From the NCBI RefSeq assembly GCF_008831285.2, contig NC_045147.1, positions 16,098,854 to 16,162,853 of the forward strand: a DNA stretch of 64,000 nt, given 5' to 3'. The position numbers and the translations under genes were made by a program. Below, one piece after another: positions 24,721 to 58,754 of this stretch (its first letter is position 1; every line of letters starts with the position of its first letter). The notes beneath the pieces were generated by a model. That model was not told the origin of the DNA, did no database searches, and saw only the letters and a list, made by a program, of their open reading frames with translations. Source of the stretch: Nymphaea colorata. Lineage: Eukaryota; Streptophyta; Magnoliopsida; Nymphaeales; Nymphaeaceae.

Positions 24721-27453
24721 GCCTTTTAAATTAGTTGCTGAAATGGATTTTAGACCCATATAGCTTAATGGGTGGGGATTTACCTATGTTGAGTGTTTTG
24801 TGAAACAATTGTCTTCTTAGCAGGCCCAAGATGGGTCTCTAGCTTTTGGGTGGAACACAAACCAGCTCCCTTTAGCATGCGGCTTCGTGTGTGGCCAAGC
24901 GACTTATCTTCATTCGTTTTCTCCCTCTCAACCTCATGGCATACGCCTCAACTCTATAATGTTTTTCTGCTTCTTGTATGTGGCCCCTCTTATTTTTTTC
25001 TTAAACCTCTCTCTCTCTCTCTCTTTACCAAAGGCTGGCTACAAGCTGCAGCATGGCCTCTCTTTTATCTTTCAAACTCTGTCTTTTTCTCTATCTCTAT
25101 CTCTTTGTGTCTGTCTCTGTCTCTCTCTATGAGAGCCCATGGCCGTCGAACATACCTGCTGGGAGGTGGCCCTTCTTTTTTTTTTCTTTCTTTTTCAAAC
25201 CTTTCTCCCTCTCCCTCTCTACCAAAGCCCATGGTTGTGGCTGCGTCTGTGATGGCGATGGTTTGCAAATACATAAGGACATGACTGTTCTTTTTGATCC
25301 CCATGTGAAACTTTTTTTTTTTTTAGGTCTACTGTGTGGGAAGATGGCTGGAAATTGTGGGGATTGCCATTGGATGTTTGAAGGAGAATATGTAACTGCT
25401 GTCCGCTGTAATTTGGGTAGGACATGAGAATTATGCAACTGGTGGATAGATGCACTTATTTTCAGTTTTTAAGTTCATTTGTTAGTCATCTACAATGTCT
25501 GTGTCCATCTAATCTTGACTTGATGAGCTTAGGTCTCTGCTGCAATTTCTCTTGGCATGCTAAAGTTGCAACTTTGTGTCCTCCCATACTTGGGATTAGA
25601 TTCTGAAATATTGCAAGTGATTCGAGGAAGTTGTGGACTACGATGCATGTCCTTTGAGCAGGTGTGCATGATTGAGGTTTGCTTATTGTTTTCTATTACT
25701 GATTTAGCTCCAGCTTTTTGCCTGCTCCAAGTAGAGCACAATGGTGGCACGAGTAGCAGTTGCCTTATTGCAATTTTCTTTTGCAGATTATGACTGAACC
25801 AAGAGTGCAGATGTTGACACAGGCAAGGAAGAAGAGGTGAATGCTGAGAAAATGACGGCAATTTATTTCTCATTGATCAAACATGGTAAGCTTTTTCAAA
25901 ATACTTACTTTATGCCCTTCAAACAAAAAAGAAGGGCTAGGATTTTATTTCTATGAAAAGAAGATTCTGGTATTTTATTTCATGAACTTTTTTGTTTGAG
26001 GATTTTATCCCATGGATTCCAAATGGGCCTTAGGGTAAATTAAATTGAATGGGATTTGGAGCAGGCATCAGGTCCGAGAATGTCTAAGGTTCTCTTAATC
26101 TTGTGGTTTTACATGTCAATTCTGGATCTTTGTGGGAGTAGAATTAGGTTGGATCTTCTTCTAATATTCAGCATGCTTGAGAACCTGCTGTTGAAGGAAT
26201 TTAGAGAAACATGGTGCGATGCTGATATGTTCTTTTGTTTTGCTGATCTAGTGGAGGAACTGAGTGCAACAAAATGGATATACGAATAATCAATTGGTAA
26301 ACTGATTATCTACTTTTATTTTTCATATTTTGCTATAAAAATAGTCTGTCCTTGTTATATTTTGATAAATACCATCTGTCTTTTCTTTCAGATGGCAATT
26401 TCTTTTTTACCTTTTTATCATTTTAGATTAACTGGGATACTGATAACCACTCTAAGGTGGCTTTTAGTTCATTCAAGTTCTTTTTGTCATAATTGGGTCG
26501 TGAAGCCTCTTGGATTTGGCTAGAGTTTGTCATATAGTGATATTGGTAGTGCTGTGGGTAGAGGGTGTGGCTTGGGTATGAGGTGTTCAACAAGGCAATT
26601 AGTTAAAAGTTGGACATGGCTATCTGTATATTTATATGCTGAAAATTTGTGGTGCGCAAATGCATTCAACCTTCAAAGGGAGTTGTGAATAAAAAATTGA
26701 GATTAAAAATTAAGTGCTAAATTGTGGGATATTTTAAAATATATAACTAATGAACATCTAAAGTAGAACAATGTGTAGCTGCGTTAGATACAAGCCTGTT
26801 TGAACTTTGAACCATGTATGAAGTACCCTAGTATGAATATAGGTGCAGCCGGTGTCTGCCAATGTGATGGAGGTGCCTCATGATGATTTTTTGGTTGAGT
26901 ATTAAGTCACTACAACAATTTGACGTATATGCAACAACCTTGCTTGTGGCAACAGCCATGGCAGATCATGGCCATTAATTCTGGCATCAAAGAACTCAAA
27001 GAGAGAAAGAGAGAGCTAAACATTACAAAAATGAGCATGGCTGAAATTTTTGAGCGTGCACCTCCATTTCCTTTCTCTCCATCTTTTTACCAACCTCTAC
27101 AAATTCCCTCTTTTCTCCCCCCATTTCCCAATCTTGTTGCCATGAACAAAAACCTGCAACATATATGTCCACTGCCATTTCCTGACCTGAGTACTTCCCA
27201 TCAGTGTCATTCCCAGTAAGAATTTTCAACCAGTCGCAGAGTTTTGCAGGCAGTGCCATGGTGATTGCCTTCTTTGTGTCCCCCATCTTTGTTGCTTTAA
27301 CCTTCATCTTCAAATAAGGGTGAAAGGGTCGCATTTTGAAAGGAAAATTGTTTCTTACAATGGCAGGGGTGTTCAATGGAGATCAGATCATGTTGTGGTT
27401 TCTAGTGAGCCGCTGCTAGGAATTTCTGGGGCAGGAATCAGCTTTTCCATTGA
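24721..27453. other. region with unassigned exon-like pieces
   Basis: No confident gene. Low-complexity CT tracts at 25004-25025 and 25090-25225 create long spurious frames. Exon-like pieces with plausible splice ends occur at about 25540-25660 (LGMLKLQLCVLPYLGL, donor GTGTGC) and 25795-25885 (EEVNAEKMTAIYFSLIKHG, donor GTAAGC). A minus-strand frame of 117 codons lies at 27023-27376 and a plus frame at 26920-27219. I cannot name a family for any. They may belong to the same host gene as the frame split by the gypsy element. Confidence 0.3.
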
Positions 27454-29310: not shown

Positions 29311-29358
29311 TCACCTGAAATATCCCTCCATGCCTTATCGGGACATGAAGTTCCGCAG

Positions 29359-32300
29359 TTGATGCGAGTGGAGGGCCGGCTCCGAGGTCGAAAGGTTAGT
29401 GTACTAGTGGATACCGGGTCCACGCATAACTTCATCTGTGAGAAATCCGCTAGAGCTCTGGGGTGTCAAATCGACCAGCAGCCAACATTTGATGTGGTCG
29501 TGGGAGATGCAAGTTCCTTAAAATGTAAAGGGCGGTGCACCGACGAGAAACTGGAGATACAAGGCCATGGGTTCTCGGTACAGCTGTATACACTAGCAAT
29601 GGCCGGGGCGGACCTAGTCCAAGGCATCCATTGGTTGAAGGGGCTGGGCGAGGTTGTGTGGGACTTCGTTAACATGAAAATGCACTTTACACAACCGGAT
29701 GGGAGGCACCTAACCCTTTCAGCTACTCCAAGAGAACTAGTCCAAGAGACCGCCACCTCCAAAATGTTACATGGAGCGGCAGCTTTGTACGTGCTACTCA
29801 TGACCAGCGCCATGGGGGAAGAGAGGTCAGACCCCACCCTCACGGGTGCGCGACTACCTCCACTGCTGGAGGAATTTTCAGATGTGTTTTGATGTTCCTC
29901 ACGGATTACCTCCTTCGCGCGCCTACGACCATCACATAGAGCTTCACCCAGGGGCGGAAGCAATGAAGAGGAGACCATACAGGTATAACCCGACCCAACG
30001 TGATGCCCTAACTCGATTTGTGCAAAAAATGTTGGAACAGGGAATTATACAGCCTAGCCGCAGCCTGTTTGCGTCTCCTGCCCTCCTGGTTCGCGAGAAG
30101 GATGGCAATTGGCAGTTTTGTGTAGACTACCGCGCTTTAAATGTTGTAACGGTGAAGGATAGCTATCTCATTCCTATCGTGGAAGACATCCTTGATGACC
30201 TCAGGGGTGCAGCCCTGTTTTCGAAGCTGGATCTTCGTGTCGGGTATCATCAGATACGGATAGCGCCACAGGATGTTCCTAAAACAGCATTTTTAACCCC
30301 GGGTAGCCATTATGAGTTTCGAGTGATGCCGTTCGGCCTCACGAACGCTCCTGCGACGTTTCAGTCCCTCATGAACGATATCTTCCGACCCCACCTGCAC
30401 AAGTTCGTACTGGTCTTCTTTGACGACATCCTTGTCTTTAGTGCAGATGAAGAGGCACATTTAAATCATCTGCGGGTGGTGCTATCTACGTTACGACAAC
30501 ACTCCCTTCACGCCAAACTCCCCAAGTGTTCATTCAGAATGAGTGAAGTCACTTACCTCGGCCACGTGATTGGCAATGGCAGCGTGAAGATGGAAGAGGA
30601 TAAAGTGCAGGTAGTGCGTAATTGGTCCATTTCTCAATCGGTCAGAGAACTACGTGGGTTTCTAGGATTGGCGGGGTACTACCGTAAGTTCGTGCGCAAC
30701 TTTGGCAGTATTGTAGCACCCTTGACACACCTCACAAAAAAGGATCAGTTTCGATGGACTGACCAAGCCAAGGAAGCATACGACAAACTCAAAGAGGCCA
30801 TCACGTCAGCGCCGGTACTACGCATGCTCGACTTCACTATGCCGTTTGAAGTAGAGACGGACGCATCCGACACAGCATTGGGTGCGATTTTGAGCCAAGA
30901 GCGACATCCAATAGCATTTTTCAGTCACGCCATGGGACCCACGTTCAGCAGCAAATCAGCCTACGAGTGTGAACTCATCGCTATGGTATTGACGATTCTT
31001 AGATGGCGACATTATTTGCTGGGTAAGAGGTTTGTGGTGCTCATGGACCACCACAGCCCGCGTTACTGTTTACAATAGAAAACATTGGTACCGGCAGTGC
31101 AGCGTTGGGTGATGAAACTGCTCACCTTTGATTTTGAGATTCGGCATCGCAGCGAGAAGAAAAACCCGGCCACATATGGTCTCTCTCAACAGGTGCAGGA
31201 AAGGCATAGATTCTGGACCTTATCGGCCATTCAGTGTAATATTTGGATAGATATTCAGCACGCTCACCAGTCAGCAACATCGGTGCAAAGGATACGAACC
31301 GACCTGTTACAGGATCCTACGAGACGATACGACTAAGAGTGGCGCCCTCCTTATCTCTACTTTCGTAGCCGTGTATTTATTCCGCTCGAGACAGCTCTGC
31401 CAGGTACTTTAATCTCACATTTTCATGACTCAAAGAGCGCAGAACATGAAGGAGTAGAAGGGACTTATCGGCGTCTAAGAACGGCGTTTTTCTAGTCGGG
31501 AATGAAGCGCGTCGTACGGGATTATGTGCGACAAGGTGATGTATGTCAACGCAATAAGTATGAGACCACACGACCCACTGGATTCTTGCAGCCCCTTCTT
31601 GTTCATGAGCAAATTTGGGAAGATATGTCCATGGATTTCATCGAGGGATTACCCCGCTCTCGGGGAAAATATGTTATATTGGTGGTAGTAGACATGCTCT
31701 CGAAATACGCACACTTCATAGCCCTCGCACACCCCTTTTCCACCAAAACAGTAGCGCAGACCTTTCAGGAGCAAGTGGGGAAGCTTCACGGTATGCCACG
31801 TTCCATTGTAAGTTAATGCTTTTTGGCAGGAGTACTTCAAACTACAGGGACGCAACTTAAGATGAGTACCGCATATCATCCTTAAACAGATGGGTAGACA
31901 GAGGTAGTAAATCGTAGTCTTGAGACTTATTTGCGATGCTTTGTGGGGGAGCATCCCAAAACCTGGGTCAACTATCTATCATGGGCAGAGTTCGCTTACA
32001 ATACTAGTTGGCATACATCCAGAACACCACCCCTTTTGAGGTTGTTTGTAAGCGTCCTCCTCCTACTATCCGCAGGTATCAATTGGCAACGACACGAGAG
32101 GGGTTTGTTGATACGCAGTTGAGGTGCCGCGATGTGATTCTTAAGGATCGAAAGGATCACTTGGCTGCAGCACGGAATCGCATGGTGATTCAATACAACT
32201 GTCGTCATGGGGCAGTTCAGTTCCAAGAGGGGGATTGGGTTTTCTTAAGGCGACCATCCCAACGGCTAGTAGGAATGCGAGGGGCAGGGCAAAGTAAGTT

Positions 32301-34815: not shown

Positions 34816-35299
34816 GACACAAGATTTATAAGCTAGTTCACTAATCTCATTATTACAATGTGTCTTATCTTGGTCACTTTTTCTCTTTCCTGCTCTCTGG
34901 GTTGCACAAAGCTTATATTGCTGGAACTATCACAATATTTGTAATAAGGTTTCTAGCCGAGGGGATTTGCTTGAAGGTCAAATGCTATGTCACCTGGGTG
35001 CTTCTAAATGGCTGCGGCACCCATGTCAATGCTGGTGCTGGTGCTTCTCCGACACCGCACATTCAGTTCAGTAAGCCGAACCAGGTCAAGACTAACCATT
35101 TTACATGTGCACATAACTAAATTATTTTTAATACAAAATTCTATATATAAATAAATAATGCTACTATATATTTAAATAACTATGTAACAAATTATTTATA
35201 TGCATGTATACATACACATATATATACACCCTTGCCGCACCCACACCAAATTTTTTTTTGAAAAATTGCCGTATCTGCACCTGCACCCTAAACTTATCC

Positions 35300-35515
35300 A
35301 TGAACGTGTGCACCCCACACTTTGGTGGCATAGGTCAAATGTTGAGGGAGACCCTATGCATGAACGTGTGCACCCCACACTTTGGTGGCATAGGTCAAAT
35401 GTTGAGGGAGACCCTATGCATGAACGTGTGCACCCCACACTTTGGTGGCATAGGTCAAATGTTGAGGGAGACCCTATGCAGGAACATGTGCACCCCGCAC
35501 TTAGGTGACATAGAT
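35300..35515. repeat. 60-bp minisatellite, 3.6 copies
   Basis: Three essentially identical 60-bp units (35300-35359, 35360-35419, 35420-35479), each starting TGAACGTGTGCACCCCACAC, and a diverged partial fourth. As 60 is a multiple of three, each frame repeats the same 20 residues, which explains long frames on both strands. The array sits in a region with GCACCCACACC/GTGTCC phrases (34980-35290) typical of a dispersed plant repeat. Confidence 0.95.
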
Positions 35516-38826: not shown

Positions 38827-39340
38827 AAAGGTTGGAGATCCAGCCCGAACTAAATAGGTTGCATCTCTAATGTGTTTGTATGCAAAACTTGCATTAAATA
38901 AATACGAGTACGATTTTGTGATTGTTTAAAAGGTTGAATGTGCTTTTCTGAAACATTCTAACTTACGCCCTTGATATTTCTCCAAAGATTGAGTCCCTTT
39001 TTTGGTTTTTGCCTCCTCTCAAGTTTACTGATTTATTTCACTAAGAAATGTCATAATGTAGATCTGGAATTTCCACTCTTTCGAGATTTTCATGAGATCT
39101 GGATTTTCATGGATCATATTGTGATCGAGACATGTAGGGTCAGAACCATCTTATTTCAACTGTCTTTGAACCGTAATGCAGATAACATATTGCGTCGAAG
39201 AAGTTACTGAGATATCCTGTAAGGGATTTACAATCACCAGGGCACCGGAGTCCAATATGCATTTGACAAAGCAGCTAGATCGTGTTTGAGGAAAATGAAA
39301 CTTTGACCGGCAGAACTCTATTTTTGTTCATCCAACAGAA

Positions 39341-39682
39341 TGAGAAATTGAGAGTACTAAGAAATGCTCACGTTGTATTTTTCACTAGCTGTTACAAGCA
39401 TATATACAGAAAAAGATTTACAATATCCACGATTTTTGGAGTGGATGAAGGAAGGTTATAACGAAGCATAATCTGCCATGACGTCTCCCTTAATTTTCCT
39501 TTCCATTGAGTGTGTTTTCATCCTCAACGTCTTCCTCAACATCTTCCTTGATTTTTGCCTTTTCATTGAATTTGTTCTCATCCTTAGTATCTTCAGCGAT
39601 CTCCTTGATTTTCAGCATATTTTTAGCAAGACGAGAATTTTGGATATCCCTAAATTATCGTTTTGATGATTTACTCTTATCA
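39341..39682 (-). repeat. copia-1 3' LTR
   Basis: 342 bp. On the minus strand it starts TGATAAGAGTAAATCAT and ends CTCAATTTCTCA. Pairs with 43861-44227. Confidence 0.95.
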
Positions 39683-39699
39683 CGCCCCCTCAAACTGGG

Positions 39700-42640
39700 T
39701 GGGGGATAAACGACACCCAATTTGCCTCTGAGATGTTTGGTGGCGGATTTGGACAAGGCTTTTGTTAAAATATTGGCAACCTGATGAGATGAAGGGACAT
39801 ATTGAGTAACTAAGGTCCTCAGTGCCACTTTCTCTGATAAAAAATGATAATTAATGGTAATGTGTTTCATTCGTGAATGAAACACTGGTTTAATGCTGAC
39901 TTGCAAAGCAGACATATTGTCACATGGGGGGTTGGTGATATGAATATTGATATCTTTGAGTATGAAGGAAATCCATGTTAGCTCAGCTGCTGCAGAGACC
40001 ATCAATCTATATTCAACTTCAGTTATAAAGTGAGCCACGGTTGGCTGTTTTTTAACTGTCCAAGAGATAGCATTTGTGCTAATGAAGGTACAAAAACCTG
40101 TTGTGGATTGCCGTGTTTTTTGACACCCAGCCCAATCGAAATCAGAATAAATGTGCAAGCGAAAGGTTGACTGTGGTGATGGTCCCATGAACATATTGAA
40201 GTATTCTTTTAACAAGCATAAATTGACTTGCTGCATATATTGGCTGACATAGTTCACACTATAGGTGATGTCAAGACGTGTGAACATGAGATATTGAAGT
40301 CCACCTACCAAGCTGCGATAGAGTGTAGGATTGATAAATAGTGGATCTTCATAAGGTGACTGAAAATGCTGAACAAGAGGGGTTACAGCAGATTTACTGG
40401 CTGTTAGATTGGCACGTTCCAAGAGACTATATGCTTACCTCTTTTGATTAAGGAAAAGACCTTGAGGCATTTTGAGAACTTCAATACCAAGGAAGTGATG
40501 TAAACTTCCTAAAACCTTCATCAAAAACTCATGATTAAGTTCAGTGATAAATTCTTGAATGAAAAAATTATTGCTGCCAAGATGATGTCATCCATGTATA
40601 ACAATAGAATGATGGTGCCTTTTTTATGATGGCAAATATAGAGAGAAGAATCTGAGATGCTGCAAAAAAAAACCTTTGGAAAGTAGAAAAAATCCAAACC
40701 TATCATATCATGCTCTTGGAGCTTACCGAAGTCCATAGAGAGCTTTATGAAGTCGGCATACATGATTTGGTTTGGTAGGATCTTCAAAACCTTGTGGCTG
40801 CTCAACATAAACGGTTTCTTGGAGCTCTCCATGTAGAAAGGCATTCTAGACATCAAGTTGCCTAATATCCAAATTTCGAAATAGAGCAATAGTTAAGACA
40901 ATGTGAATTGTGGCTGGTTTGATGACTGGTGAAAAAGTTTCATGAAGTCAATTCCAAGAATTTGGTTGAACCCACGAGCCACTAATCGAGCTTTTAGGTG
41001 ATCCAAAGTTCTATCGCTTTTTTGCTTGGTTTTGAAGACCCATCTGGTGGAGATGACATTCATATCGGCGGTTTGGGGTATTAGAGTCCATGTTTTGCAC
41101 AGATTCTATGCTGCTATTTCTTCCTCCATTGCTTTCACTTAGCCTGGATGTTTGAACGCCTCTTTGACTGTTTTAGGTTCCAAAGGAACTGAAAGAGCAA
41201 TGAAATACTTTGGATTGGGCTTAACTATGCCATCTTTTGCCCTTGTGACCATGGAATGTAAGTTAATAAGAGATGGTGGTTGTTGGTCGGTGGGAGTGTG
41301 TGATATGGAATCAGCGAGAGAGAGCTCGATGGCCTCTTGAGGAAAGCTAGCATCTGTAACATGAGAATTGTTAGCACCCGTAGCAAAGGAAAAATCGCCA
41401 CCACTTGTAGTCAAATCATATTTGTCATTGTGACAACAAGTTCTAATGGAATCATTTGCAAGTTCATTGTTAGAGTCAGGCTGAGTTCCTTCTTTTAACT
41501 GACTGGTTGTCATCAAGCCATGCCTTGTAAGTAACACCTTCTTGAGAATGAGATATTGATGAAAATAAATTCCCAGGTTGTCGAAAAGGAAATACATTTT
41601 CATCAAAAACAACACTTCTGGATATAAAAATCTGACCTGTTAGTGGGTATAAGCATTTATATCCTTTATGTGATGAGTTATACCCTATAAAAACGCATGG
41701 TAAGGATCGAGGCTTCAACTTGTTCTTAGCATAATCTCGAAGATTAGGGAAACATCGGCTTCCAAAAACTCTCATGCATCCATAATCTAACCCCTTTTTG
41801 AAGACGAGCTGGAAAGTATTATTCGTATTAACAGTCGGTGTGGGCAGTCGATTGATTAACGACACAGCTGTAGAGAAGGCTTCCACCCAAAATTTTGTTG
41901 GCATACTAGCATGAAACATCATAGCAAGTCCGAGTTCTACTATAGTTTGATCTCTGCGTTCAACCATTCCATTCTGAGGAGGGGTTTTAGGGCATGCTTT
42001 TAGGTGTTGGATGCCATATTCACGCAAGTATGAAGCAAGGGTGTTACTATTAAATTCTCCTCCTTCATTAGTTTGAAAAATTTTAATTCTTTTCCCAAAC
42101 TGATTTTCCACAAATTTGTGAAAAATTTTAAAATTCTCATAAAAGTCTGACTTGAATCGCATTGGATAGAACCAAATGAAATGAGTAGATTCATCAACAA
42201 AGATTGCATATACTTATATTGTTGAGATCCGATGATCGGAGCAGGCCCTCATAGATCACAATGCACACGACAAAGAAATTCATCACAATGTTCTTCAATA
42301 GGAAGATATGGAAGACGACATGACTTAGCCAATTGATAGTTGGAACATAAAATTCTGCTACTAGATGGGCCAAGAATTCTAGTGGCCTTTGTATTTACTA
42401 AAAACTCTACTACATGCTGATTGATGTGGCCAAGGCAATGATGCCACACTTCTTTATTCGCTCCTCGAAATCTAACTGAGGAAAACGCCTTGTGATCTCC
42501 TTGAAGTTTTGACGTTGCTCCTACATTTTTCAGCATGTAAAGACCATCATGTCTGGTTCCGGACGCCACAATCTGTCGATTCCTCTTGTCCTTTATAAGA
42601 AAACCATTAGCTGAGAATTCAAAAACATAAGGCATGTCTG
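39700..42640 (-). pseudogene. copia-1 pol (GAG-pre-integrase, integrase, RT, RNase H)
   Basis: The zinc-finger-like GAG-pre-integrase piece (42249-42635) contains WHHCLGHIN. The integrase core at 41476-42162 has the second catalytic aspartate replaced by asparagine (TNEGGEF, codon 42067-42069; canonical TDxGGEF), while PQNGMVER keeps the glutamate. An integrase C-terminal/linker segment follows to 41139. RT survives as LLLYMDDIIL (YMDD at 40587-40598). RNase H at 39655-40422 keeps YSDFDWAGC but has EVEYRLM where TEAEYRA is expected. Frameshifts and stops separate all these blocks. Not functional. Confidence 0.85.
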
Positions 42641-42749
42641 TTGACTGACTGAAATTAATTTCTTTTTAATTTCTGGAACCACCAAAACATTCTTGAGATG
42701 AATAGCATTTTGCCCATCATTAACAATGGCATTTACCACATGTGTGATG

Positions 42750-43837
42750 TCAAGTTTCTAGCCATTGCCTACCATTATCTTTTTCTGAACCATAATATGT
42801 AGTTGAGACATTGAGATTACCTGCTTCTGATGTGATGTGAGCTGACGCTCTAGTATCTGGAAACCATTGTTGATCTTGTCCATCCGCAATCTTCATTGTA
42901 GCTAATGCCTGAGGAACTTGTTTGGGCTGGAAAGTTTGATTAAAACGATGCGAGCAATTAAGTGCAGAATGGTTTCTTTTGTTGTAGATTTGGCACACGA
43001 CTCCCTTTTGGGGGCATTGGGCTGGTTATTATTTTCTCTTTTGTCGTTGTTGAATGGAGTACCTTGGCTGGCTTGACGAAATTCGCATCCCTTAGAGATG
43101 AAAGTATGATTTTTATATCCCTTATACCTCTGATTTTGAACACGTTGATTCACAAATGCCACATGAGTACCTGAAATATCTCCATACATATTCTTTACTG
43201 TTTCATGACTTTCAAGCAAGGCGATGACTTCCAACTATGGTGGAGTCGGTGGACGCATATAGGTCATTCTAAAGGACTCATATTCTGGCCCGAGACCAGT
43301 CAATAGCTAAAAGACTTTAGGTTGATCTGAAACTGGTTTTCCAATAACAGCAAATTCGTCGCATATAATTTTGAAATTTCTGGTGTATTCAGCAATACTT
43401 AGATTGTCTTTCCAATTCATCTGAAGTCTTTGCATAAGGAGCATTTCTCGCTCCTGCGACTCATAAGCAAATCTGTGATTTAGAGTATCCCATACCTATT
43501 TGGAGGTTTTTAGACCGACGACCAACCCCAATATTTCTTTAGATAAGGTTCCTGTAATCCATCCACGTAGCAACCGATCTGATCTTTGCCAGGCGTTGAA
43601 ATCTGGGTTCACAGCTTGTTCAACTGCAGTACTATTGCTGGGAAGGTATCTGTCAGGCATAGGGGTTTCTCCATTAACAAAACCTGTCATATCCTGACTT
43701 TCAATTAGTCCTAGCACCTGCGTCTGCCATAGGAGAAAATTGGACTAGGTTAATTTGATGGACACAAAATTGGCGACGTTCAAGTTGAAAGGATATGGAT
43801 ATTTGGTAGAGGAAGTTTGTGAGCTTTGTGAGGCCAT
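42750..43837 (-). pseudogene. copia-1 gag and protease
   Basis: Translation would begin at the ATG at 43837, eleven bases inside the PBS. Several stops interrupt a recognisable copia gag: the LWQTQVLGLIES and WDTLNHRFA regions, then LMQRLQMNWK, where functional relatives read LxLxxxLxxxK. The CCHC knuckle reads CQIYNKRNHSALNC with the second cysteine changed to Y. The protease site reads WFPDTRASAHIT, so the invariant glycine of DTGA is an arginine (codon 42849-42851). These two changes alone would abolish maturation. Confidence 0.85.
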
Positions 43838-43847
43838 AGAATCGTAT

Positions 43848-43860
43848 GGCTCTGATACCA
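43848..43860 (-). other. copia-1 primer-binding site
   Basis: TGGTATCAGAGCC on the minus strand, directly adjoining the 5' LTR; complementary to initiator tRNA-Met. Confidence 0.9.
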
Positions 43861-44227
43861 TGAGTAATTGAGAGTACTAAGGATATTTCTCACGTTGTAT
43901 TTTTCTTTAGTTGTTACAAGCATATATATAGGAAAAGATTTACAATATCCACAATTTTTGGAGTGGATGAAGGAAGGTCATAAAGAAGCAGAATCTGCCA
44001 TGATTCTGTAATTTCAGTCTCCTCAACGTCTCCCTTAATTTTCCTTTCCAGTGTGTTTTCATTCATCCTCAACGTCTTCCTCAACATTCTTCCTTGATTT
44101 TGCCTCTTCAGTGAATATGTTCTCATCCTTAGTATCTTCATCGATCTGCTTGATTTTCAGCATATTTTTAGCAAGACGAGAATTTTGGATATCCCTAAAT
44201 TCTCGTCTTGCTGATTTACTCTTATCA
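43861..44227 (-). repeat. copia-1 5' LTR
   Basis: 367 bp; on plus it begins TGAGTAATTGAGAG and ends ACTCTTATCA. Confidence 0.95.
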
Positions 44228-44232
44228 CAGAA

Positions 44233-46114
44233 ATGGTGGATATCAAGGGCTCCTTTCATCTAAAATTGACATTATTTATGTTGGCTCAACTTATCAGAGT
44301 CCATCCTAGATCTTGAAAATGCACGTACTAGTGGTTATTGCGGTGAAGAATATTCACCTTTCTATTTATGAGCTGGGTACTGATCAATCGCCCTCCCTTG
44401 AATTTTTTCATCACTTGATGTAAAGAATAAGGTGATTCAACAAGAGATAACGTCGAGGCATAGACAAGGCGATCTCTGGATTTTGAAACTTGTTCACAAT
44501 TACAATCAATATGTTCTGTTCCGTAACTAAGGCAATGCAGGCAGTTCCAATGATATTTGGCAACTTGATCTGATGCCTGGACATTGTTACGGGTGGATAC
44601 AAGCCCGACGGATCATAAAACTCATCATTGTTTTAAAAAACAATCTTCAATATATGGCTCTTCTCTAACTCTGTGCACACACATCGGGTTTTACACTCGT
44701 TCTGGTTAGTGAAAATTATGAAAGAGGGAATGTGATGTCCTTGTTCAGTCTGAGATTTAGCAATTACTTACTTCCCCGAAATGCAAGTACGTAAAAGAAT
44801 TCTTGGGTGTTCTTCAAATACAACGAAATACTTGGTGAAATGAGATTACAGCTGAAAATAACAACTCCAGCTCCATTACAAGTTACTTTCCTAAACTGGT
44901 GGTTCTCCAATGCATCAAACATCCACTCTTTGTTCTCATGAGTTCACACCTTAACTTTCTTCTTCCTCTTTCTCCCCACCATGATACTGGCCACATTGCC
45001 ACCATTAAACCTAGCGGGGATAGAGGGAACTTGACAACACTGTGCCACCAATACGAGGATGGTGCCCTCGACTGCCTTCTGATCTATATCTGCAACCACC
45101 ACCTTCGTTAGATGGCAAACCCATGGTCCATTTGATGATAGCAGTAATGTGACCCGAAAAATGGTTTCCTGGCTGCTTCTTCCATCCACGATGGATTGAT
45201 GTTAGGGTTGAAACCTTCTGGTGGAAGCACGGGTCTTGATGATGTAGGATACTGTTTCAGAATTTATATGTTGTGTTATGCTATTCTAAACTGGACTACG
45301 GATATGTGGGTGCTGAAAACATGCAGGTCATGAATGAGTGGCTTTTAGCTTTGTGGCCATGAGGGTGATAAGGATTATCAACAAGCAGTGAGCATCACGA
45401 GCCATAATTTCTGGTTCATGTTAGAGTTTTGATGAGGAGTTGTTTTTTTCAGCAGGTCCTCTTGGTTTGGGTGAGATGACTGTAGGTTCAGACAAGGGGC
45501 AATTTTTGGTTTCTCAGGTGGAGTATGTGGTCCTGGAATTCGAGACCACAAAGATTAGAGGGCTTGAGTTTCTAGAAAGAGCTTTGCATTGGCTTGAGAG
45601 AGGATCATAGGGTTCTCGTTGAAATGTTTGGATCTAGTACACTTTCCATGAAACGACAATGTGATTGTGCTTTAGTGGTCCATTGACTGTTCATGCTCAA
45701 CTGTGGTCTTCTCAGATGCTCAGCGCATGGATAGGGTGTCTCAGGCACAAGCACCTATCCCGCATCCTGTTCATTTTGGCGCTTTCATATTTATGATATT
45801 TAATGTCAGATAGAACATGCGGCACTGACTTCCATGCCAAAGGCATTTGAGCCTATGTGTTAGTTACTATTGTCTTTTAACTGGTAGAATTTAGTGTGAA
45901 CTCTTGAAAAGATAACTGGGGAACGTATTAGCACTGAATTGCTACTGGAATGAACTGTATCTTGTGAATAGGGGTTAGAAACCTATAAGCGGGTGATGAT
46001 ACACAAATGATACGATCAGCTGTTACTGATCCGGGGAAGATATATGTAAGGTTTTGGGATTATAGCTGTTCATTTTGTGAGATAGATTTTCTCATCCATG
46101 TTTGCTATTAGATG
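44233..46114. other. non-coding stretch
   Basis: No supported gene. Overlapping frames at 44899-45111 (plus) and 44944-45189 (minus; ends GRKRKKKVKV) are unrecognised. The rest is AT-rich sequence without repeats that I could pair. Confidence 0.4.
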
Positions 46115-46262
46115 CTACTCTTGCTTGGGGGTGGGCATAGGGCCGGGTCGGCCCGTCTGGCCTGAAGCCGGACCGGGTACCGGGTCTGGTCCACCAAAAA
46201 TCAGGCCCAGCCCGGCCCGTTTGGCAGGCCGGGCCGGGTCGGGCCTGATTTCACACCGCTCC

Positions 46263-46430
46263 ATCTCTACCAGAACCTTCCTTGTGAGGTCCTGTCCGAA
46301 AACCCACTACCCAAGCGTGTGCCTCAAGCTTGTTGACGCCGGCCAGATCCAGTGCAGCTCCACGGAGTTGGCCCGGGCGATGCTCTTGGAGAGCCTGGCC
46401 AAGGCCCGACACAATTGGGCGTCCGTTGTC
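46263..46430 (+). pseudogene. captured plant invertase/pectin methylesterase inhibitor (PMEI) domain fragment
   Basis: 56 codons read STRTFLVRSC...THYPSVC...STELARAMLLESLAKAR. This is the N-terminal half of a PMEI domain: the FIRSSC-x-x-T-x-YP-x-x-C start with its two disulfide cysteines, then helix LARAALxxxLAxAR. Such domains inhibit cell-wall pectin methylesterase or invertase, alone or as the pro-region of the esterase. The signal peptide and second half are absent. The fragment ends at the inverted repeat where the other captured gene begins. Original product: cell-wall protein; here it has no start codon of its own and no function is inferred. Confidence 0.75.
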
Positions 46431-46473
46431 CTCTCATCAGCTCCCCTCGGATCAACGACGGACGCCCAATTGT
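46411..46473. other. inverted repeat at the junction of the two captured fragments
   Basis: ACAATTGGGCGTCCGT at 46411-46426 is the exact reverse complement of 46458-46473, with 31 nt between. The left arm lies inside the PMEI fragment (codons HNWASV). The right arm, read on minus, follows the 31K fragment as DNWASV. It could fold into a 16-bp hairpin. Confidence 0.9.
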
Positions 46474-46788
46474 CGACGGCGATGGAGGCGGTTAGGGTTC
46501 TTCCATTCAGGACCTTCCCTTGCATCTACAGGACAGCATTGAGGGCATCGGACTGCCGAAAGTGGAGAAGATGTGTGGATGTCGGAATTGGTGACGCTGA
46601 AGTCCAGGTTGCTCACGTAAGACCGTCGACTTCGAGGGTGCGAGACCGCCGCTTCCTCCTTCTCCTCCTCTTCCACCCTGATGGTGCTTGGATGACGACG
46701 CTGATGACGATGGGACAATAGGATTTTGCTGACAGAAGTAGAGCAAGTCATCGTCTTCTTCTTCACTGTCATTCCTGTTCTTCGTCAT
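46464..46788 (-). pseudogene. SNRNP31: captured U11/U12-31K minor-spliceosome protein fragment
   Basis: Read on minus from an ATG at 46788: MTKNRNDSEEEDDDLLYF, a serine/glycine-rich linker, GGLAPSKSTV (46650-46621), then after a frameshift YVSNLDFSVTNSDIHT (46619-46572), and after another shift FSTFG. This is the start of the RRM of plant U11/U12-31K (ZCRB1-type), including RNP2. The central RRM with RNP1 is deleted. The end of the domain follows in a third frame as DALNAVL, a stop, then MQGKVLNGRTLTASIAVDN. In the intact family a CCHC knuckle comes next; here the reading runs into inverted PMEI sequence. The intact protein binds U12-type pre-mRNA complexes. This copy is a deleted, frameshifted fragment. 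Confidence 0.75.
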
Positions 46789-47150
46789 CTCCCTCCACCA
46801 CTGTGTCCTCGGTTCCATAGACATGCTGAAGCAATCGCTTGGGGAGGTGGAGCACCTGAAGAGGAAGACCTGGTGACGGTGGCCCATGGTGGAGCGGAGA
46901 CGGTGACTGAGTGACTCTCCCTGTCTCTGCGGTGCAGCGCCTCTGCCTCGGGAGGGAGGGAGGGCACGGGAGGAATGAGTCGACCTAACAGGCCGTCGGG
47001 CCGGGCCGGGCTGTAGAAGTGATAACCGGGCCCGGCCCATTAAGATCTCGGGCTGGGCGGGGCTCACTCAAGTTGAGCCCGATAACAAAAATTTTTTTAC
47101 CCGGACCCGGCCCGTACCGTGCAGGGCCAGGCTCCAGGCCTACTCTTGCT

Positions 47151-47765: not shown

Positions 47766-48067
47766 TGATAAGCTTTGAGAGAAGGAGTAGAAGGAAGACA
47801 ATGCACACAGATTTACGTGGTTTGGATCTGTCAATCCTACATCCACGATAAGAACATCATGCAGCCTTGTTCTGTTTTCTCATTCTCATCTTCTTTACAA
47901 ATTGCAATGAATATATGTAGTGTTGGAGAAAGACCAACAAAGTAGGTGTTTCCTCAACGTTACTCAAACGGCTATAAGAGGAATATATGGCAACAAGATC
48001 AAACTAACAAGGTAAGAAAATGTTGACATTTTTGTCTGCGTGATGATGGAATATCGACTTCTCATCA
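47766..48067 (-). repeat. copia-2 3' LTR
   Basis: 302 bp, pairs with 51799-52098; about a dozen or more single-base differences are visible by eye. Confidence 0.95.
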
Positions 48068-48121
48068 CACTCCCCCTCAAGTGGGGCGTACAAGTCATGG
48101 CAGCTCCACTTGTTAATAGCT

Positions 48122-49745
48122 TCATTTAACTCTTTTCTTGATATTGCTTTGGTTAATCCATGATATTGCTTTGGTTAATCCATCTGTAAGTTGTTTTGAA
48201 CTTGGTGTGAAGGGAGTATTGATTTCGCCATTCTGGACCTTTTCTCGTATGAAATGACAGTCAATTTCTATATGTTTTGTCCTTTCATGGAACACTGCAT
48301 TTGCTGCAATATGTATGGCAGCTTGATTATCACAATGCATTGGTGTGGGAGAACTAAATTATAAACCCATTTCAAATAGAAGGGTACGAATCCAAGTAAT
48401 TTCACTAGCTATGGTGGACATTGCCCTGTATTCTGCTTCTGCACTGGACCTAGAAGTGACTCATTGTTTCTTACTTCGCCAAGATACTAGGTTATTGCCT
48501 ACATAAATACAATATCCAGTAGTGGATTTTCGATCCATGCATCCTCCCCAATCTGCATCAGAATTATGCTCTAATGTTGACATGGCCATTTTGTTTATAT
48601 AATAATTCTTGGCTAGGAGACTTCTTCAAATATTTGAGAATCTGTTCAACCATGTCTCAATGTTCCTGAGTTGGATCATGCATATGTTAGACTAACAAGA
48701 TTTACTGCATATATAACAACCTGACCCACTCTTAGGCTCGGGCCCCTGGTTCGACGAATCACAACCCGCCCCCCTAGCAGTTTTAGTTCCAACCTTGAAA
48801 AGGCTAAGAACTAGGACAATTTTCCAATTAATGACCCCCCTTTATAAACCCTTGAAGATTCCTCACAATCTTCGATATGGGACTAAACATTTGGGGCATT
48901 ACAACATAAGTGATGTCGAGTCTCATAACTGTGAGATAAATAAGCTTTCCTACTAGTCGTTGATATCTTGAAAATTTTAGAGTTTCTTGTTTCTCAGTAA
49001 TGGCTTCTTTGTTGTTGATGAATACCTGTGTATCTACAGGACGACATCCAAGTTTTCCAGTTTCTTTGAGTAGATCAGTGACATATTTTCTTTGTGACAT
49101 AAATAACTCTTTCCTTGATTAAGCAATTTCTATTCCCAAAAGGTATTTTAACTTTCCCAAATATTTATGTTGAAGTCCTTTTGAAGTAGTGTTTTTACAT
49201 CCTTGATCTTGAGAGTGTTGCTTCCTATGATGATTATGTCGTCTATATAGATAAGCACCAAAATAATGTCATTGTCCTTCTTACTGATAAACAACGAATT
49301 GTCTGCTTTACTCCTGTAGAATCGATATTGTTCAAGAGCTTTGCTCAATTTGAAGTGTCACGCTCGAGGAGATTGTTTAAGTCCGTATATCGATTTTTGC
49401 AGCTTGCATACTGATGTAGACTTTTCTTGAGTCCATCCAGGAGGTAGCTTCATATATACTTCTTTTTGTAAGTCTCCCTGCAAAAAATCATTTTTTACAT
49501 CTAATTGAAATAATGGCCAATCACAATTGCAAGCGATCGAGAGCAAAATTCAGACAGTATTCATCTTGGCTACCAGGGCAAATGTCTCCTCATAATCCAA
49601 TCCTTGTGTTTGAGTATATCATTTTGCGACCAGCCTGGTCTTGTATCTTTCCATTGTTCCATCACAGCTGTATTTGATTTTAAAAACTCATCTACAGCCA
49701 ACCGCATGTTTTCCTTCAGGCAATCGTCATCTTCGTCTCCTGTCC
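48122..49745 (-). pseudogene. copia-2 reverse transcriptase and RNase H
   Basis: RT starts at about 49745 with a CRWVFK-type region, YKTRLVAK then a stop, and ETFALVAKMNT. It continues with [12 protein letters not shown] (49358-49546) and the catalytic YIDDIIIIG (YIDD at 49238-49249), where plant copia elements usually have YVDD. The connection region 48904-49100 includes YQRLVGKLIYL. It is then broken by the nested insert. RNase H ends with [28 protein letters not shown] (48260-48340 region) and LTDGLTKA. Stops occur between blocks. Confidence 0.85.
48712..48903 (-). mobile_element. TRIM-like solo terminal repeat, copy 1 (nested in copia-2)
   Basis: A 192-bp insert with no copia similarity interrupts the RNase H region. 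On minus it begins TGTAATGCCCC and ends GGTTGTTATA. Flanks GCATA (48707-48711) and ACATA (48904-48908) agree at 4 of 5 positions, as expected for an aged duplication. It aligns with 52250-52411 over nearly its whole length, sharing TATCGAAGATTGTG, TATAAAGG, CATTAAT, CGAACCAG and GGCCCGAGC. The TATAAAGG could be a promoter element. Confidence 0.75.
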
Positions 49746-49752
49746 TGAAAGA

Positions 49753-51091
49753 TTACATTGGTAGGAGATAATGTGTAATCTTAGAAACAAAGAGAAGATT
49801 GGATGTTAGATTAGACATATAAAGAGTCTTCAATTCTTTTTCAAAAAAATTTGTTTTTCCTACTCCAACAACTTTAATGGAGGTGTCATAAGCTATAGCC
49901 ACAGTTCTATTTTCACTTTTATTTTTTATATCTTTCAAGTTATTGTGAAAACATGACATATGTTCAGATGCACCTGAATCCATGATCCAAGAGTAATTTT
50001 TAGTAAGAGAAGGGTCTGAATTCATACCTAGCTGATTTCTAGGTGAAGTGAATGTTGATGCAGCAGTTACCATGTTGTTGTGTTTCTGGTCATTCAGATT
50101 TTTAATCCTCTTTGCAATAGTAGCAAGAGTAACCTCACCTTTGTCAGATTGAACCAACTGCATCTACGGTTTATACTGTTGTTTTAGAGGATCTCCCTTG
50201 TTGGTAGGTCTGCCATGTAAATTCCAACATTTTTTTTCAAACATGTCCTTTTTTGCAGTATGTGCACACTAGTCATTTGCCTCTATTTTTGAACGATGGT
50301 TGAACCTCCATTTTTCCTTCATATTTTTTGCTGACCGAGGCATTGAAATCAACTTTTTCAATGTTTTCACCACTAGTTTTAGTATCAACAGTGTCACTGG
50401 TGTTCATAATCTTCCTCCTTTTTTCTTCTCGTAAGAGGGTGTTACACATCATATCCAAAAACAGCAGATCAAAAGTCATTAATGTTTGGCTTCTTGCTTG
50501 TTCGTAATCTTTACCTAAACCAACCAATAGTTTGAAGGTTCTTTCTTGATCTCACTGCCTCGTAATGCAAGCAAGGTCGGTTGAAAGTGGACAATGAGAG
50601 CCCATCTCATTCCACTTCCCTTTGAGCGTAGCAATATAGTCGCTCAAGGTCATATGACCTTTCTTCAACTCATAAATTTCATGGGAGAGTTGATACATGT
50701 GTGTCGTACTATATTTTTTACTATATAATTCTTTGGCAGCATTCCATATTTCCTCAGCAGTTTCAAAATAATAAAAACTCTCAGCGATTTTAGCGTCCAT
50801 AAAATTCAGTAACCAAGACATGACCATATGATTACCTGACTCCCATTCATCATAGTTAGGATTGTCAATGGCTGGTTTAGATTTTTTTCCGTTAACAAAC
50901 CCAAGTTTACATTTTCTACTTAAGAAGAGAGTAGCAGCTTTGGACCATGACATATAATTTAAGCCATTCAATGGAACATTTGTAATTTTGAGAATGGTGG
51001 TACCTGTCTCCACGACAATTTGTTGTTGTGTAGAAGATCCACTAGTCGAGTTCATTCTTTGAGAATCACTAGTTCTCTCATTAGTGTCCAT
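49753..51091 (-). pseudogene. copia-2 gag and protease
   Basis: Gag starts at the ATG at 51091 and is open for 179 codons, with typical copia features: LNGLNYMSWSKA, LLNFMDAKIAESF, IWNAAKELYSKK and KWNEMGSHCP. A stop at 50552 is followed by continuing gag sequence (50273-50527), then a damaged knuckle region. The protease site is intact as WIMDSGASEHMS (aspartate codon at 49978-49980). After LLFVSKITHYLLPM the reading stops, and RT sequence begins almost at once, marking the integrase deletion. Confidence 0.85.
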
Positions 51092-51149
51092 TGATAAATA
51101 AGAGAAACACTAACGAAATTGTTTTTTGCCAATAAGGGGAAGTGCAACA

Positions 51150-51743
51150 TGAGAGGCGGTCTGAACTCAAGTGATTTAGCAGCAGGAAGGTAGTCTGAAC
51201 TCGTGTGATTTCAGCCTCCTCCGGTCACCAATCAGGTCGATTTTGGAGATGTTGAATGTGCAACAGAGGGGCGATTCTCCCTACAAATCTCACAAAGAAG
51301 ATGGCTCGTGGAGATAATGCCGGTTGATAGAACAGATACAAGCACGTTGCTGCGCTGTTTTGCAGCAAAAGAGGCGGTCGGAACTTTGATGATTCCGGCC
51401 AGCTCCGATCACCAAATTGGTCGAGCTTAGAGGCGTTGGATCGGCAACATATAGCGGTCCTTCCTATAAAATCTCAGACTGGGAGATTAATTGTGGAGAT
51501 AATGTTGGTCGATGGAATGAAGGGGCGACAAGCACGTTGCTGCCTTGTTTTGCAGCAAATGAGGCGGTCGTAAATTTGATGATTCCGGCCAGCTCCGATC
51601 ACCAAATTGATCATGCTCAGAGGCGTTGGATCCGCAACAAATAGGCGGTCCTTATTGTAAAATTTGAGACTAGGAGATTGATTGTGGAGATAACGCCGGT
51701 CAATGGAATGAAGGGTGACAAGCACGTTGCTGCCTTGTTTTTT
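51150..51743 (-). repeat. three-copy tandem repeat of about 190-210 bp in the copia-2 leader
   Basis: Units at about 51150-51362, 51363-51552 and 51553-51743 share GAGGCGGTC, GATGATTCCGGCCAGCTCC, GATCACCAAATTG, GTGGAGATAA and GACAAGCACGTTGCTGC-type phrases in the same order. The array fills the untranslated leader between PBS and gag. The first unit (in plus order) is the most diverged. Confidence 0.85.
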
Positions 51744-51786
51744 TTATTCCTCAACTACCCTCAAAAAATCGAGTGTTCAGCACATT

Positions 51787-51798
51787 GCTCTGATACCA
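51787..51798 (-). other. copia-2 primer-binding site
   Basis: TGGTATCAGAGC on minus, directly adjoining the 5' LTR; complementary to initiator tRNA-Met. Confidence 0.9.
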
Positions 51799-52098
51799 TG
51801 ATAAGATTTGAGAGATGGAGTAAAAGGAAGACAACATACAGATTTATGTGGTTTGGATCTGTCAATCGTACATCCACGATAAGAACATCACGCAGCTTTG
51901 CTTTGTTTTCTCATTCTCATCTTCTTTACAAATTACAATGAACATATGTAGCATTGGAGGAAGACCAACAAAGAAGGCGTTTCCTCAACGTTACTCAAAT
52001 GGCTACAGGAGGAATATATGGCAACAAGATCAAACTAACAAGGTAAGAAAATATTGACATTTTTGTCCGTGTGATGTTGGAATATCGACTTCTCATCA
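51799..52098 (-). repeat. copia-2 5' LTR
   Basis: 300 bp; on plus it begins TGATAAGATTTGAGAG and ends ACTTCTCATCA. Confidence 0.95.
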
Positions 52099-55587: not shown

Positions 55588-56217
55588 CCTGCCAGCCACT
55601 GAACACATGGTAATAGTAGATAGAGATTAAACAACAAGAAGTTGTGGATATTTTGACTGAACACAAGTTTTTCAAACTTACGGCCATGCTTATCGTCTTC
55701 CATGGCCCGCTAAAATCGAGGGCTATGATATGAATATCTAATCTGATCCACAATCAGCGTGATCTGCAATTCAGGAAGGCTTTAAATTGTGACAACTGCT
55801 CACCAGAGAATCTAACCCACCTTTGTCAATAAGCTTTCCCTTCTTCATGAAATCTTCCTCCCTCTCGTTTTGAAAAGAGAGAAAATGAAGACGATCATGG
55901 ACGCGGGTAAGCTTCAGAGTTGAAGCGCATTTTAATTCTTTAATTTTTTTTTCATTAGAATGAGAGAACCCCACTTGGCACCCGAAACTCAAGCTCGGAC
56001 TCGATCTGACACCCAAAATTCGAGTCTAGATCCAATCCGGTTAAAATAAAAATATATATATATTGTTTAAAATATAAAATAAATTTTTAAATGTAAATTA
56101 TATTTTTAATAATAAAATATATCGTTATTAAAATAAAAAAAATATTAAAAATATATGTCAAACCGATTTTTTCGACCCAAACCGGATCAGGCTGAGTTTC
56201 TAAGTTTCAAAATTAAT

Positions 56218-56255
<38 letters not shown>

Positions 56256-56716
56256 AAGAAAGACTTTTGGGCTTGTGAACAGCTGTGCGGTTGTCGTATG
56301 AAAACAAAATGCTCCAAAGTTTGGGGTCTTTTACATAAACAACTGTTATTTACATACAGTGTTTTGGTAGTATATATATATAAGCACAAACAGACATTTA
56401 TTCCATGGTTTTTTATCCGGCTTAAACTAGCTAATGCAAAAGCACGTAATTACTGCCTTTTTTGCAAAATTTCCTTCAAAACAAATCCGCTCCATGCCTT
56501 CTCCCTGTCTGTCTATGTCCATGTGACAAAGATCACGGCCTCACATATTGATAGTATTGGTCTCACTTCTCAGTCAAAAGGAAGGACTTCATTATTGAGA
56601 GCCGGACCACCAACAATTCGCTGCCCAACCACCAGTCAGTGCACAAACAGGCACACTGCTCATGTCTCTGCTACTCAGTTCGCTTTATCGATAGACTCAA
56701 ATCCACCTCTCATGTC

Positions 56717-56722
56717 TATAAA
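56717..56722 (+). promoter_or_regulatory. TATA box of the purine permease gene
   Basis: TATAAA in context GTCTATAAAGCATAC, 38 bp before the ATG at 56760. This implies a very short leader. Confidence 0.4.
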
Positions 56723-56759
56723 GCATACAAGACTGTATTATCTTCTGCACCAAAAAAAT

Positions 56760-58754
56760 ATGGAAATTGAGAGCAACCAAGTTCCAGCACCAGCTGCCAC
56801 TCACTTAAAGAAATGGCTTCTCCTTGCAAACTCTCTCTCCTTAGCAGTAGGCTCCACTGCAGGTCCTCTGCTGCAGAGGCTCTACTTCTTGCATGGAGGA
56901 AACCGTCGATGGTTTTCCAGTTGGCTTGAGACCGGAGGCTGGCCGATCATGCTCATTCTCTTGCTTATTTCATACTTTCGACGGCGCCGGAATTCAGGCT
57001 GCAGAACTCCAGTTTTCTTCATGACATGCAGGCTGGCAGTTGCTTCTGCAGCTCTTGGAGTGATAACTGGGTTCGACGATTTCATGTACTCCTTCGGGCT
57101 AGCATACTTGCCTGTTTCAACCTCTTCTCTGCTCATATCTACACAGTTGGCTTTCACTGCCGTGTCCGCGTTCCTACTTGTGAGGCACAAATTCACTCCC
57201 TTCTCCATTAATGCAGTGGTCTTGCTTAGCATCGGTTCAGCAGTGTTGGGTCTCCATTCTAGCAAAGACAGACCAAAGAATGTTAATAATTTCAAGTACT
57301 ACCTGGGCTTCGCTTTGACGCTTGGGGCGGCGATGCTCTATGGGATGATTCTGCCGCTGGTGGAGTTGATGTATAGGAAGGCCAAGCAGACGATAACTTA
57401 CACGCTTGTGATGGAAATTCAAATGGTGATGTCCTTTTCTGCTACTGCTTTTTGCACAGTCGGTATGCTGGTGAACAACGATTTCCAGGTAAAGCGTGGA
57501 CTCACTTTCTTCACAAATCTGGAATTTCTTTTGGTCTTTCCCAAATGATATTCCTCTTGCTTCTTCATGATTGAGAGCTGTGTTTATCAAGACAGTTGCT
57601 TGTTGGCTCAGATTTGCTGCTAATGGGCTCCTTAATGGAACAAGACAGGCCAATACAGATCTTGCTCTACTGTCCTTTTAACTCTTTATTCTAAATTAAC
57701 TTAAAATTGCATTATTTTCTAAAACCATAAAAGTCAACATCAGGTTCACCAAGATGAATTTGTGGAGAGTGGCTTATGTGTTCTGATACTCCAAATTTTT
57801 AGCAAAACGATGCGACTCTTATACTGATACTCTCAATGATTGGTAGAAAAAATTAATTCCCGTCATGTAATATTGAAGCTTTTAATCTCTAAGTTGTGGC
57901 TGAATCGGCACAAAACATAAGTGAATCTAGTTATTCAAAGATGCCCTTTATTTTGCACAATTTAATGTTTAATTATATGATACCTAGGTCAATATGAAAG
58001 TTCTGCAATTCTCAGTTGGATATCAAATATCCCAATGAATGCAGTCGGCTTAATTTGCCTGCTACCAGTACAAACACAAAAGGATGCTTGTCCCGCTACG
58101 TGCCATAGGCTTAAGATTTATCAAAAGCAAATTTCCTCCCATATGTTTGCTTGCATAAGGTGCATATATACATTTTTTTTTAAATTGATCTTGTAACAGT
58201 CTTCTGTTTTTGGAACTTAATCTATTTTCTTCTTTACAAAATTAGCCATCTTTGTCCAATCAGAAAGTGTGCCTCTGCACCTCAAAAGCACAATCGGTTG
58301 CTGCTTGGATTCTGTCAGTCCAGTTACTCTCGTATATATGTTGAAAGCAATAGAAAGCAAACTTTTAATCAGAAGCTGGTAACCTTTCATGATCATGGTG
58401 ATCACAAATTCTCAGGTTATCACGAGAGAAGGAAGTGAATTTGGGCTTGGTGAAGCCAAGTATTACTTGCTGCTAGTATTCACCGCGATCGTGTGGCAGC
58501 TCTTCTTCATTGGTGCAGTTGGTGTCGTCTTCTGTGCTTCCTCATTGTTCAGCGGCATTCTCATCTCTCTCTTGCTTCCCGTCACAGAAATACTAGCAGT
58601 GCTCTTCTTTCATGAGAAGTTTGGCGGTGAAAAGGCCATTTCACTCATCTTATCTCTATGGGGCTTCGCCTCTTACTTCTATGGGGAGTACGCTCTCAGC
58701 AAAAAGAAGCCATTGACACCGACTAACCCAGGCGACGCCCAGCTTCAACCATAG
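56760..58754 (+). CDS. PUP: purine permease (PUP family), two exons
   Basis: Exons 56760-57488 and 58416-58754 join in phase 0 across a 927-bp GT-AG intron (CAG/GTAAAG ... TTCTCAG/GTTATC), giving 355 residues, normal for plant PUPs (about 350-390). PUPs are plant-specific members of the drug/metabolite transporter superfamily; they move adenine, cytokinins and related bases across membranes with protons. Seen here: about ten hydrophobic helices, the PUP-type start WLLLANSLSLAVGSTAGPLL, LYFLHGGNRRW, GFDDFMYSFGLAYLPVSTS, STQLAFTAVSAF, GFALTLGAAMLYGMILPLVEL, and in exon 2 GLGEAKYYLLLV, CASSLFSGI, LPVTEILAVLFFHEKF and LWGFASYFYGEY. Start chosen at MEIESNQ because the family begins just before the first helix; the same frame is open another 154 codons upstream but those residues do not resemble PUPs. 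No lesions seen. The substrate cannot be told. Confidence 0.92.

Follow-up and report, generated by a model that had tools for sequence, protein, structure and literature searches.

A GC-rich insert with pieces of two host genes

In the window, the whole 64-kb stretch of DNA that was analyzed, a GC-rich insert of 1,017 bp is probably a non-autonomous Pack-TYPE DNA transposon, tentatively more likely of the hAT than of the MULE kind. Its interior appears to be filler copied from a pair of host genes: the 5' portion of a U11/U12-31K gene (minus strand) and the beginning of a PMEI domain (plus strand), which lie tail to tail. This reading agrees with the repeat at the edges, the high GC content of the ends, and the matches to two proteins. 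Because the position of the repeat coincides with a step in GC content and with the GC-rich, repeated ends, it counts in favor of a transposon.

The edges of the insert

The insert is bracketed by a perfect 11-bp direct repeat, CTACTCTTGCT, whose plus-strand copies at 46115-46125 and 47140-47150 are the only two in the 64-kb window. The 10-mer TACTCTTGCT, which an earlier note on this DNA had rightly placed on both sides of the insert, has exactly two plus-strand occurrences (46116 and 47141) and a single one on the opposite strand. The full repeat contains 8-bp registers and at the same time lies within a length of 9-11 bp. With its last 8 bases, CTCTTGCT (46118..46125 on the left and 47143..47150 on the right), taken as the target duplication, the element extends from about 46126 to 47142 and measures 1,017 bp. 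In this register, it starts with TGGGGGTGGGC and, on the other strand, with TAGGCCTGG; the longer readings of the two starts are TGGGGGTGGGCATAGGGCCGGG and, on the opposite strand, TAGGCCTGGAGCC. The register CTACTCTT places the element at 46123-47139, likewise 1,017 bp. Thus, the insert that had been proposed at 46116..47150 is present, while its limits had been drawn too wide.

The GC content of the element is 0.604, as compared to 0.393 for the window and to 0.397 and 0.385 for the flanks of ~5 kb, with the step at the element edges. The left GC-rich subterminal region (46126..46260) carries GGGCCGGG-type repeats and an inverted repeat (46198-46219/46230-46251), and the right one (46976..47142) carries CGGGCC/GGCCCG repeats. 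GGCCCG/CCGGCC-type motifs, a set picked post hoc when the ends had already been inspected, occupy 24 positions in the 302 bp of the ends (135 + 167 bp), as compared to 3.4 on average and no more than 11 in any of 1,000 dinucleotide shuffles. The same set accounts for 3 positions in the 715-bp interior of the element and for 29 in the 62,983 bp of the window that lie outside it. Plant hAT elements typically have T-GGGGTGGGC/TAGG ends and GGCCCG repeats.

The ends had been described earlier as GC-rich and of an inverted type, which was borne out for their composition, while no inverted arrangement of the termini rose above chance. Comparison of the terminal 12 bases gave 2 to 7 matches over 10 registers, and the two highest values belonged to the 8-bp registers CTACTCTT (7) and CTCTTGCT (6). 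The best value of 7 of 12 was equaled by 225 of 2,000 end shuffles, and short diverged repeats, seen without sister copies, would be indistinguishable from chance. The absence of a terminal inverted repeat beyond chance is a weak point for any TIR transposon. We found no further copy of the element sequence within the 64-kb window, and no transposase among the matches up to E 10 in the 15 window stretches scanned, two of which are parts of others.

A broken U11/U12-31K fragment on the minus strand

The minus-strand piece (46469..46788) is an N-terminal fragment of U11/U12-31K (ZCRB1-type). It opens with an ATG start codon at 46788, an acidic, serine-rich leader, and the peptide GGLAPSKSTV (to 46621). 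Following a one-base frame shift, it continues as YVSNLDFSVTNSDIHT (46619-46572), returns to the first frame for IFSTFG (46572-46555), and ends in the third frame with SDALNAVL, a stop, and MQGKVLNGRTLTASIAVDN (46552-46469). When the frames were joined by X at the breaks, ZCRB1 (2e5h; zinc finger CCHC-type and RNA-binding motif-containing protein 1) was the top of 63 PDB matches with an E value of 3.7e-10 (43.5 bits), a score boosted by a glycine-rich low-complexity stretch that aligned to GSSGSSG, the first residues of 2e5h. Unrelated antibody linkers matched the same stretch of the query from E 0.0076, and the runner-up RRM chain in PDB had an E value of 9.6e-05. The pieces of the joined query are collinear with ZCRB1 and lie on one strand.

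Each frame was also compared separately, with no joining. Here, the first of the ZCRB1 peptides scored 59, a value reached by none of 1,000 shuffles of the element (maximum 40), and the best of 122 other window tiles scored 35. The second peptide scored 38, which was reached by 2 of 1,000 shuffles and equaled by the best of the 122 other tiles. The middle frame, unjoined, had ZCRB1 as its sole PDB match (E 2), and the second piece aligned to 2e5h with 4.3 bits (i-Evalue 620). This second piece carries weight through its position, order, and strand, not by itself. Together, these data support the earlier assignment of the minus-strand pieces to U11/U12-31K.

Residues 44-67 of 2e5h are without counterpart in the 31K piece, and thus, about 24 RRM codons are absent from it. 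Even with the frames joined, the match to Pfam RRM_1 reached 16.0 bits against a cut-off of 20.7, and Pfam gave no match to a zinc knuckle (CCHC) in the joined query. With its frame breaks, its stop, and the gap in the RRM, the piece does not qualify as a functional U11/U12-31K gene, and no protein is expected from it. ZCRB1 is a protein of the U11/U12 spliceosome, as stated in the title of PMC13216214. Plants, according to the accessible text of PMC3422263, have only one 31K gene, which is required for the splicing of U12 introns. Because the 31K gene is single in plants, the second, broken piece is likely a copy.

The sequence upstream of the 31K start codon (46789..46975, minus strand, GC 0.631) is possibly the 31K leader or a third captured piece, and the frames scanned in it gave no convincing Pfam match. 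A third captured gene in this region was considered and rejected; the sole match was zf-CW (E 0.079), far below cut-off, from a stretch reaching into the region.

A probable PMEI fragment on the plus strand

The plus-strand piece (46284..46410, start approximate), which reads SCPKTHYPSVCLKL...ELARAMLLESLAKAR, is probably an N-terminal fragment of a PMEI domain, an assignment that we hold less firmly than that of the 31K piece. SCPKTHYPSVCLKLVDAGQIQCSSTELARAMLLESLAKAR on this strand matched PF04043 with E values of 0.019 in a 210-aa frame, 0.0037 as a 67-aa piece, and 0.0093 as a 46-aa piece, all three below the gathering score of 29. TIGR01614 of NCBIfam was matched by the 67-aa piece under its curated cut-off (E 0.049) and was unmatched by the 210-aa frame. 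The sole PDB match of the piece was chain B of 1xg2 (E 1.1), a pectinesterase inhibitor that we take to be from kiwi. The PMEI peptide of 1xg2 scored 53 against the element, a value that none of 1,000 shuffles reached (maximum 45), and the 122 other window tiles scored 33 at most.

The match covers at most positions 3-55 of the 156 in the PMEI profile and is not a complete domain. The piece had been taken for half a PMEI domain; its identity as PMEI was borne out, while its extent is nearer to a third. The peptide motifs quoted for both genes were found on the strands that had been given for them.

A 211-aa open frame (46086-46721) begins in the left flank, crosses the PMEI piece, and continues into the antisense of the 31K piece. 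It was tried as a chimeric protein and rejected, as Pfam gave only PMEI (E 0.019) and ptaRNA1_toxin (E 0.035, 14.7 of 27 bits), the second of which we attribute to chance. Matches to BBS2_N, zf-CW, and Put_DNA-bind_N in Pfam and to eps_fam in NCBIfam (E 0.046-0.14) were likewise taken as chance.

The fragments converge at an inverted repeat

The PMEI piece reads rightward and the 31K piece leftward, and thus the two fragments converge tail to tail and are not arranged head to head as the earlier note had it. They meet at an inverted repeat, whose left arm (46411..46429, plus strand, 19 bp) and right arm (46455..46473, plus strand) are complementary at 18 of 19 positions and are separated by 25 bases. 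The right arm overlaps the end of the 31K piece, and the Pfam PMEI stretch, which spans 46284-46427, enters the left arm. This palindrome scored 16, as compared to a maximum of 12 in 150 shuffles of the element interior. As RNA, the 86 nt of 46400-46485 folded with a z score of -4.43 on the plus strand (0 of 200 shuffles as good) and of -3.44 on the minus strand (1 of 200). The arms disagree at a single position, a CpG where they differ by C/T, as expected for methylated DNA.

Past VDN, the minus strand reads GRPSLIRGE, one base out of frame. This looks similar to the continuation of ZCRB1, which we take to be GRAAEFIRRR, and suggests that the right arm and the spacer may be 31K sequence and the left arm a fold-back copy. 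The extension of the Pfam PMEI match into the left arm (to 46427) would somewhat favor the opposite direction of copying.

Neighborhood of the element

To the right of the element lies an LTR retrotransposon (47766-52098), whose repeats (47766-48067 and 51799-52098) are 91% alike and enclose a Copia-type gag on the minus strand (50552-51109). On the left is a decayed retroelement (39340-44228), whose minus strand shows a polyprotein domain of the SH3-like type and a match to integrase below threshold; two of its segments, 39340-39683 and 43860-44228, are possibly LTRs, with 85% of their positions alike. A further retroelement, Gypsy-like by our reading, has protease, reverse transcriptase, and RNase H domains at 29311-31078. 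A large diverged tandem array occupies 20965-24734; its period is about 284-293 bp, and shorter units are nested in it. At 35295-35513, a 60-bp tandem repeat is present in 3.7 copies (96% matches), and one of its frames is open and repeats a 20-residue unit. The open frame at 56217-57548, which encodes a domain for purine transport (PUNUT, E 3.9e-73), is probably a host gene. The PMEI piece, the purine permease domain, and the retrotransposons suggest that the window comes from a plant.

Proposed formation of the element and alternative explanations

If the insert is a Pack-TYPE element, repair synthesis that switched from one ectopic template to another would have closed a gap within a small element. 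As the 31K copy neared its end, the growing strand may have folded back and copied itself for ~19 bases, which would have produced the inverted repeat, and the PMEI copy would have been joined after this step. Transposase supplied in trans would have moved the finished element to its present site and generated the target duplication; before the insertion, the target would read GCTACTCTTGCTAAATT, unbroken. The limits of the fragments and the fold-back step are proposed from the element itself and not from donor sequence. The junction palindrome weakly supports such a copying route over the joint mobilization of neighboring insertions, which is described as a rival route in plants in the accessible text of PMC8903248. 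The cargo contains no intact reading frame and is probably without function, except that it might at most give rise to small RNAs.

A Pack-MULE in place of a Pack-hAT is a possible, though doubtful, alternative. The target duplications of MULEs measure 9-11 bp, a range that includes the 11-bp direct repeat, and Pack-MULEs often take GC-rich 5' parts of genes, as both captured pieces here are. However, out of 12 end bases, at most 5 match when the duplication is taken as 9 bp, 4 at 10 bp, and 3 at 11 bp, as compared to 7 and 6 for two of the four registers of 8 bp, with none of these values above chance. It is improbable that no transposon is involved and that old pseudogene fragments are flanked by a chance 11-bp repeat. 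Pairs of 11-mers 300-3,000 bp apart are common in the window (1,557 outside the tandem array, with low-complexity runs and other repeats left in), and the terminal inverted repeats do not exceed chance; yet the repeat of the element is the sole 11-mer pair in the window at exactly its spacing, and it falls at the GC step and at the GC-rich, repeated ends. Capture by a Helitron was rejected, since Helitrons make no flanking duplication and one is present here.

We consider it very unlikely that the element is a functional chimera, whose transcript or junction hairpin would give rise to small RNAs directed at the 31K or PMEI genes from which the pieces came. The fold of the 86-nt junction surpasses that of almost all shuffles, and in maize, the donor genes of capturing transposons produce more siRNA than other genes (accessible text of PMC12030055); however, the stem is short, no Rfam family reached its gathering score in the window, and inverted repeats fold well regardless of function. 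Least probable of all is a fold-back hairpin gene, in which the element transcript would yield 19-21-nt RNAs antisense to the single U11/U12-31K gene of the host, an early birth of a microRNA by template-switch fold-back and not by inverted gene duplication. In that case, the transposon would adjust the activity of the minor spliceosome in trans. An effect of the 31K scrap on the 31K gene of the plant, such as the one that the earlier note suggested for antisense transcripts, is conceivable but finds no support in the present results. If small RNAs arose from the element, transposon cargo would be linked to the splicing of minor introns. As the Pack-TYPE transposon that we favor, the insert is a small, readable case of how a transposon may build its cargo from pieces of unrelated host genes, and the faulty copying step that joined them may be preserved in the junction inverted repeat.

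Comparison with known systems

The capture of gene pieces by a Pack-type element, as put forward in the earlier note, fits the repeat, the GC-rich ends, and the protein matches. It is not new as such, because Pack-TYPE elements with pieces of more than one locus have been published, and hAT examples of stepwise acquisition are mentioned among them (accessible text of PMC8903248). This kind of gene-scrap capture is already known, and it is the donor pair that is odd. In the accessible titles, abstracts, and text passages of papers on Pack-type capture and the minor spliceosome, we found no element with PMEI and U11/U12-31K as donors. The PMEI family is listed among transposed Arabidopsis genes in the accessible text of a paper that cites Pack-MULEs.

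The element resembles the maize Pack-hATs of PMC8903248 in being a non-autonomous DNA element with host coding DNA in its interior, sometimes from several loci, and it differs from them in its donor pair, which is absent from the accessible text of that source. A further difference is that the pieces here meet at an inverted repeat and that the terminal inverted repeats are not above chance.

In rice, Pack-MULEs prefer GC-rich 5' parts of genes, and MULEs usually have long terminal inverted repeats, which were not found in this element. The multi-locus cargo is a feature shared with rice Pack-MULEs, about a fifth of which hold several loci (accessible text of PMC12030055). Among animal Pack-TIRs, 56.9% lie within 15 kb of the parental copy according to the accessible text of PMC8277862, whereas no second copy of the sequence is present in our window. 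The likeness to these elements, 208 of 370 of which belong to hAT, lies in the filler DNA held within TIR elements, for which gap filling with template switching and microhomology has been proposed (PMC8277862).
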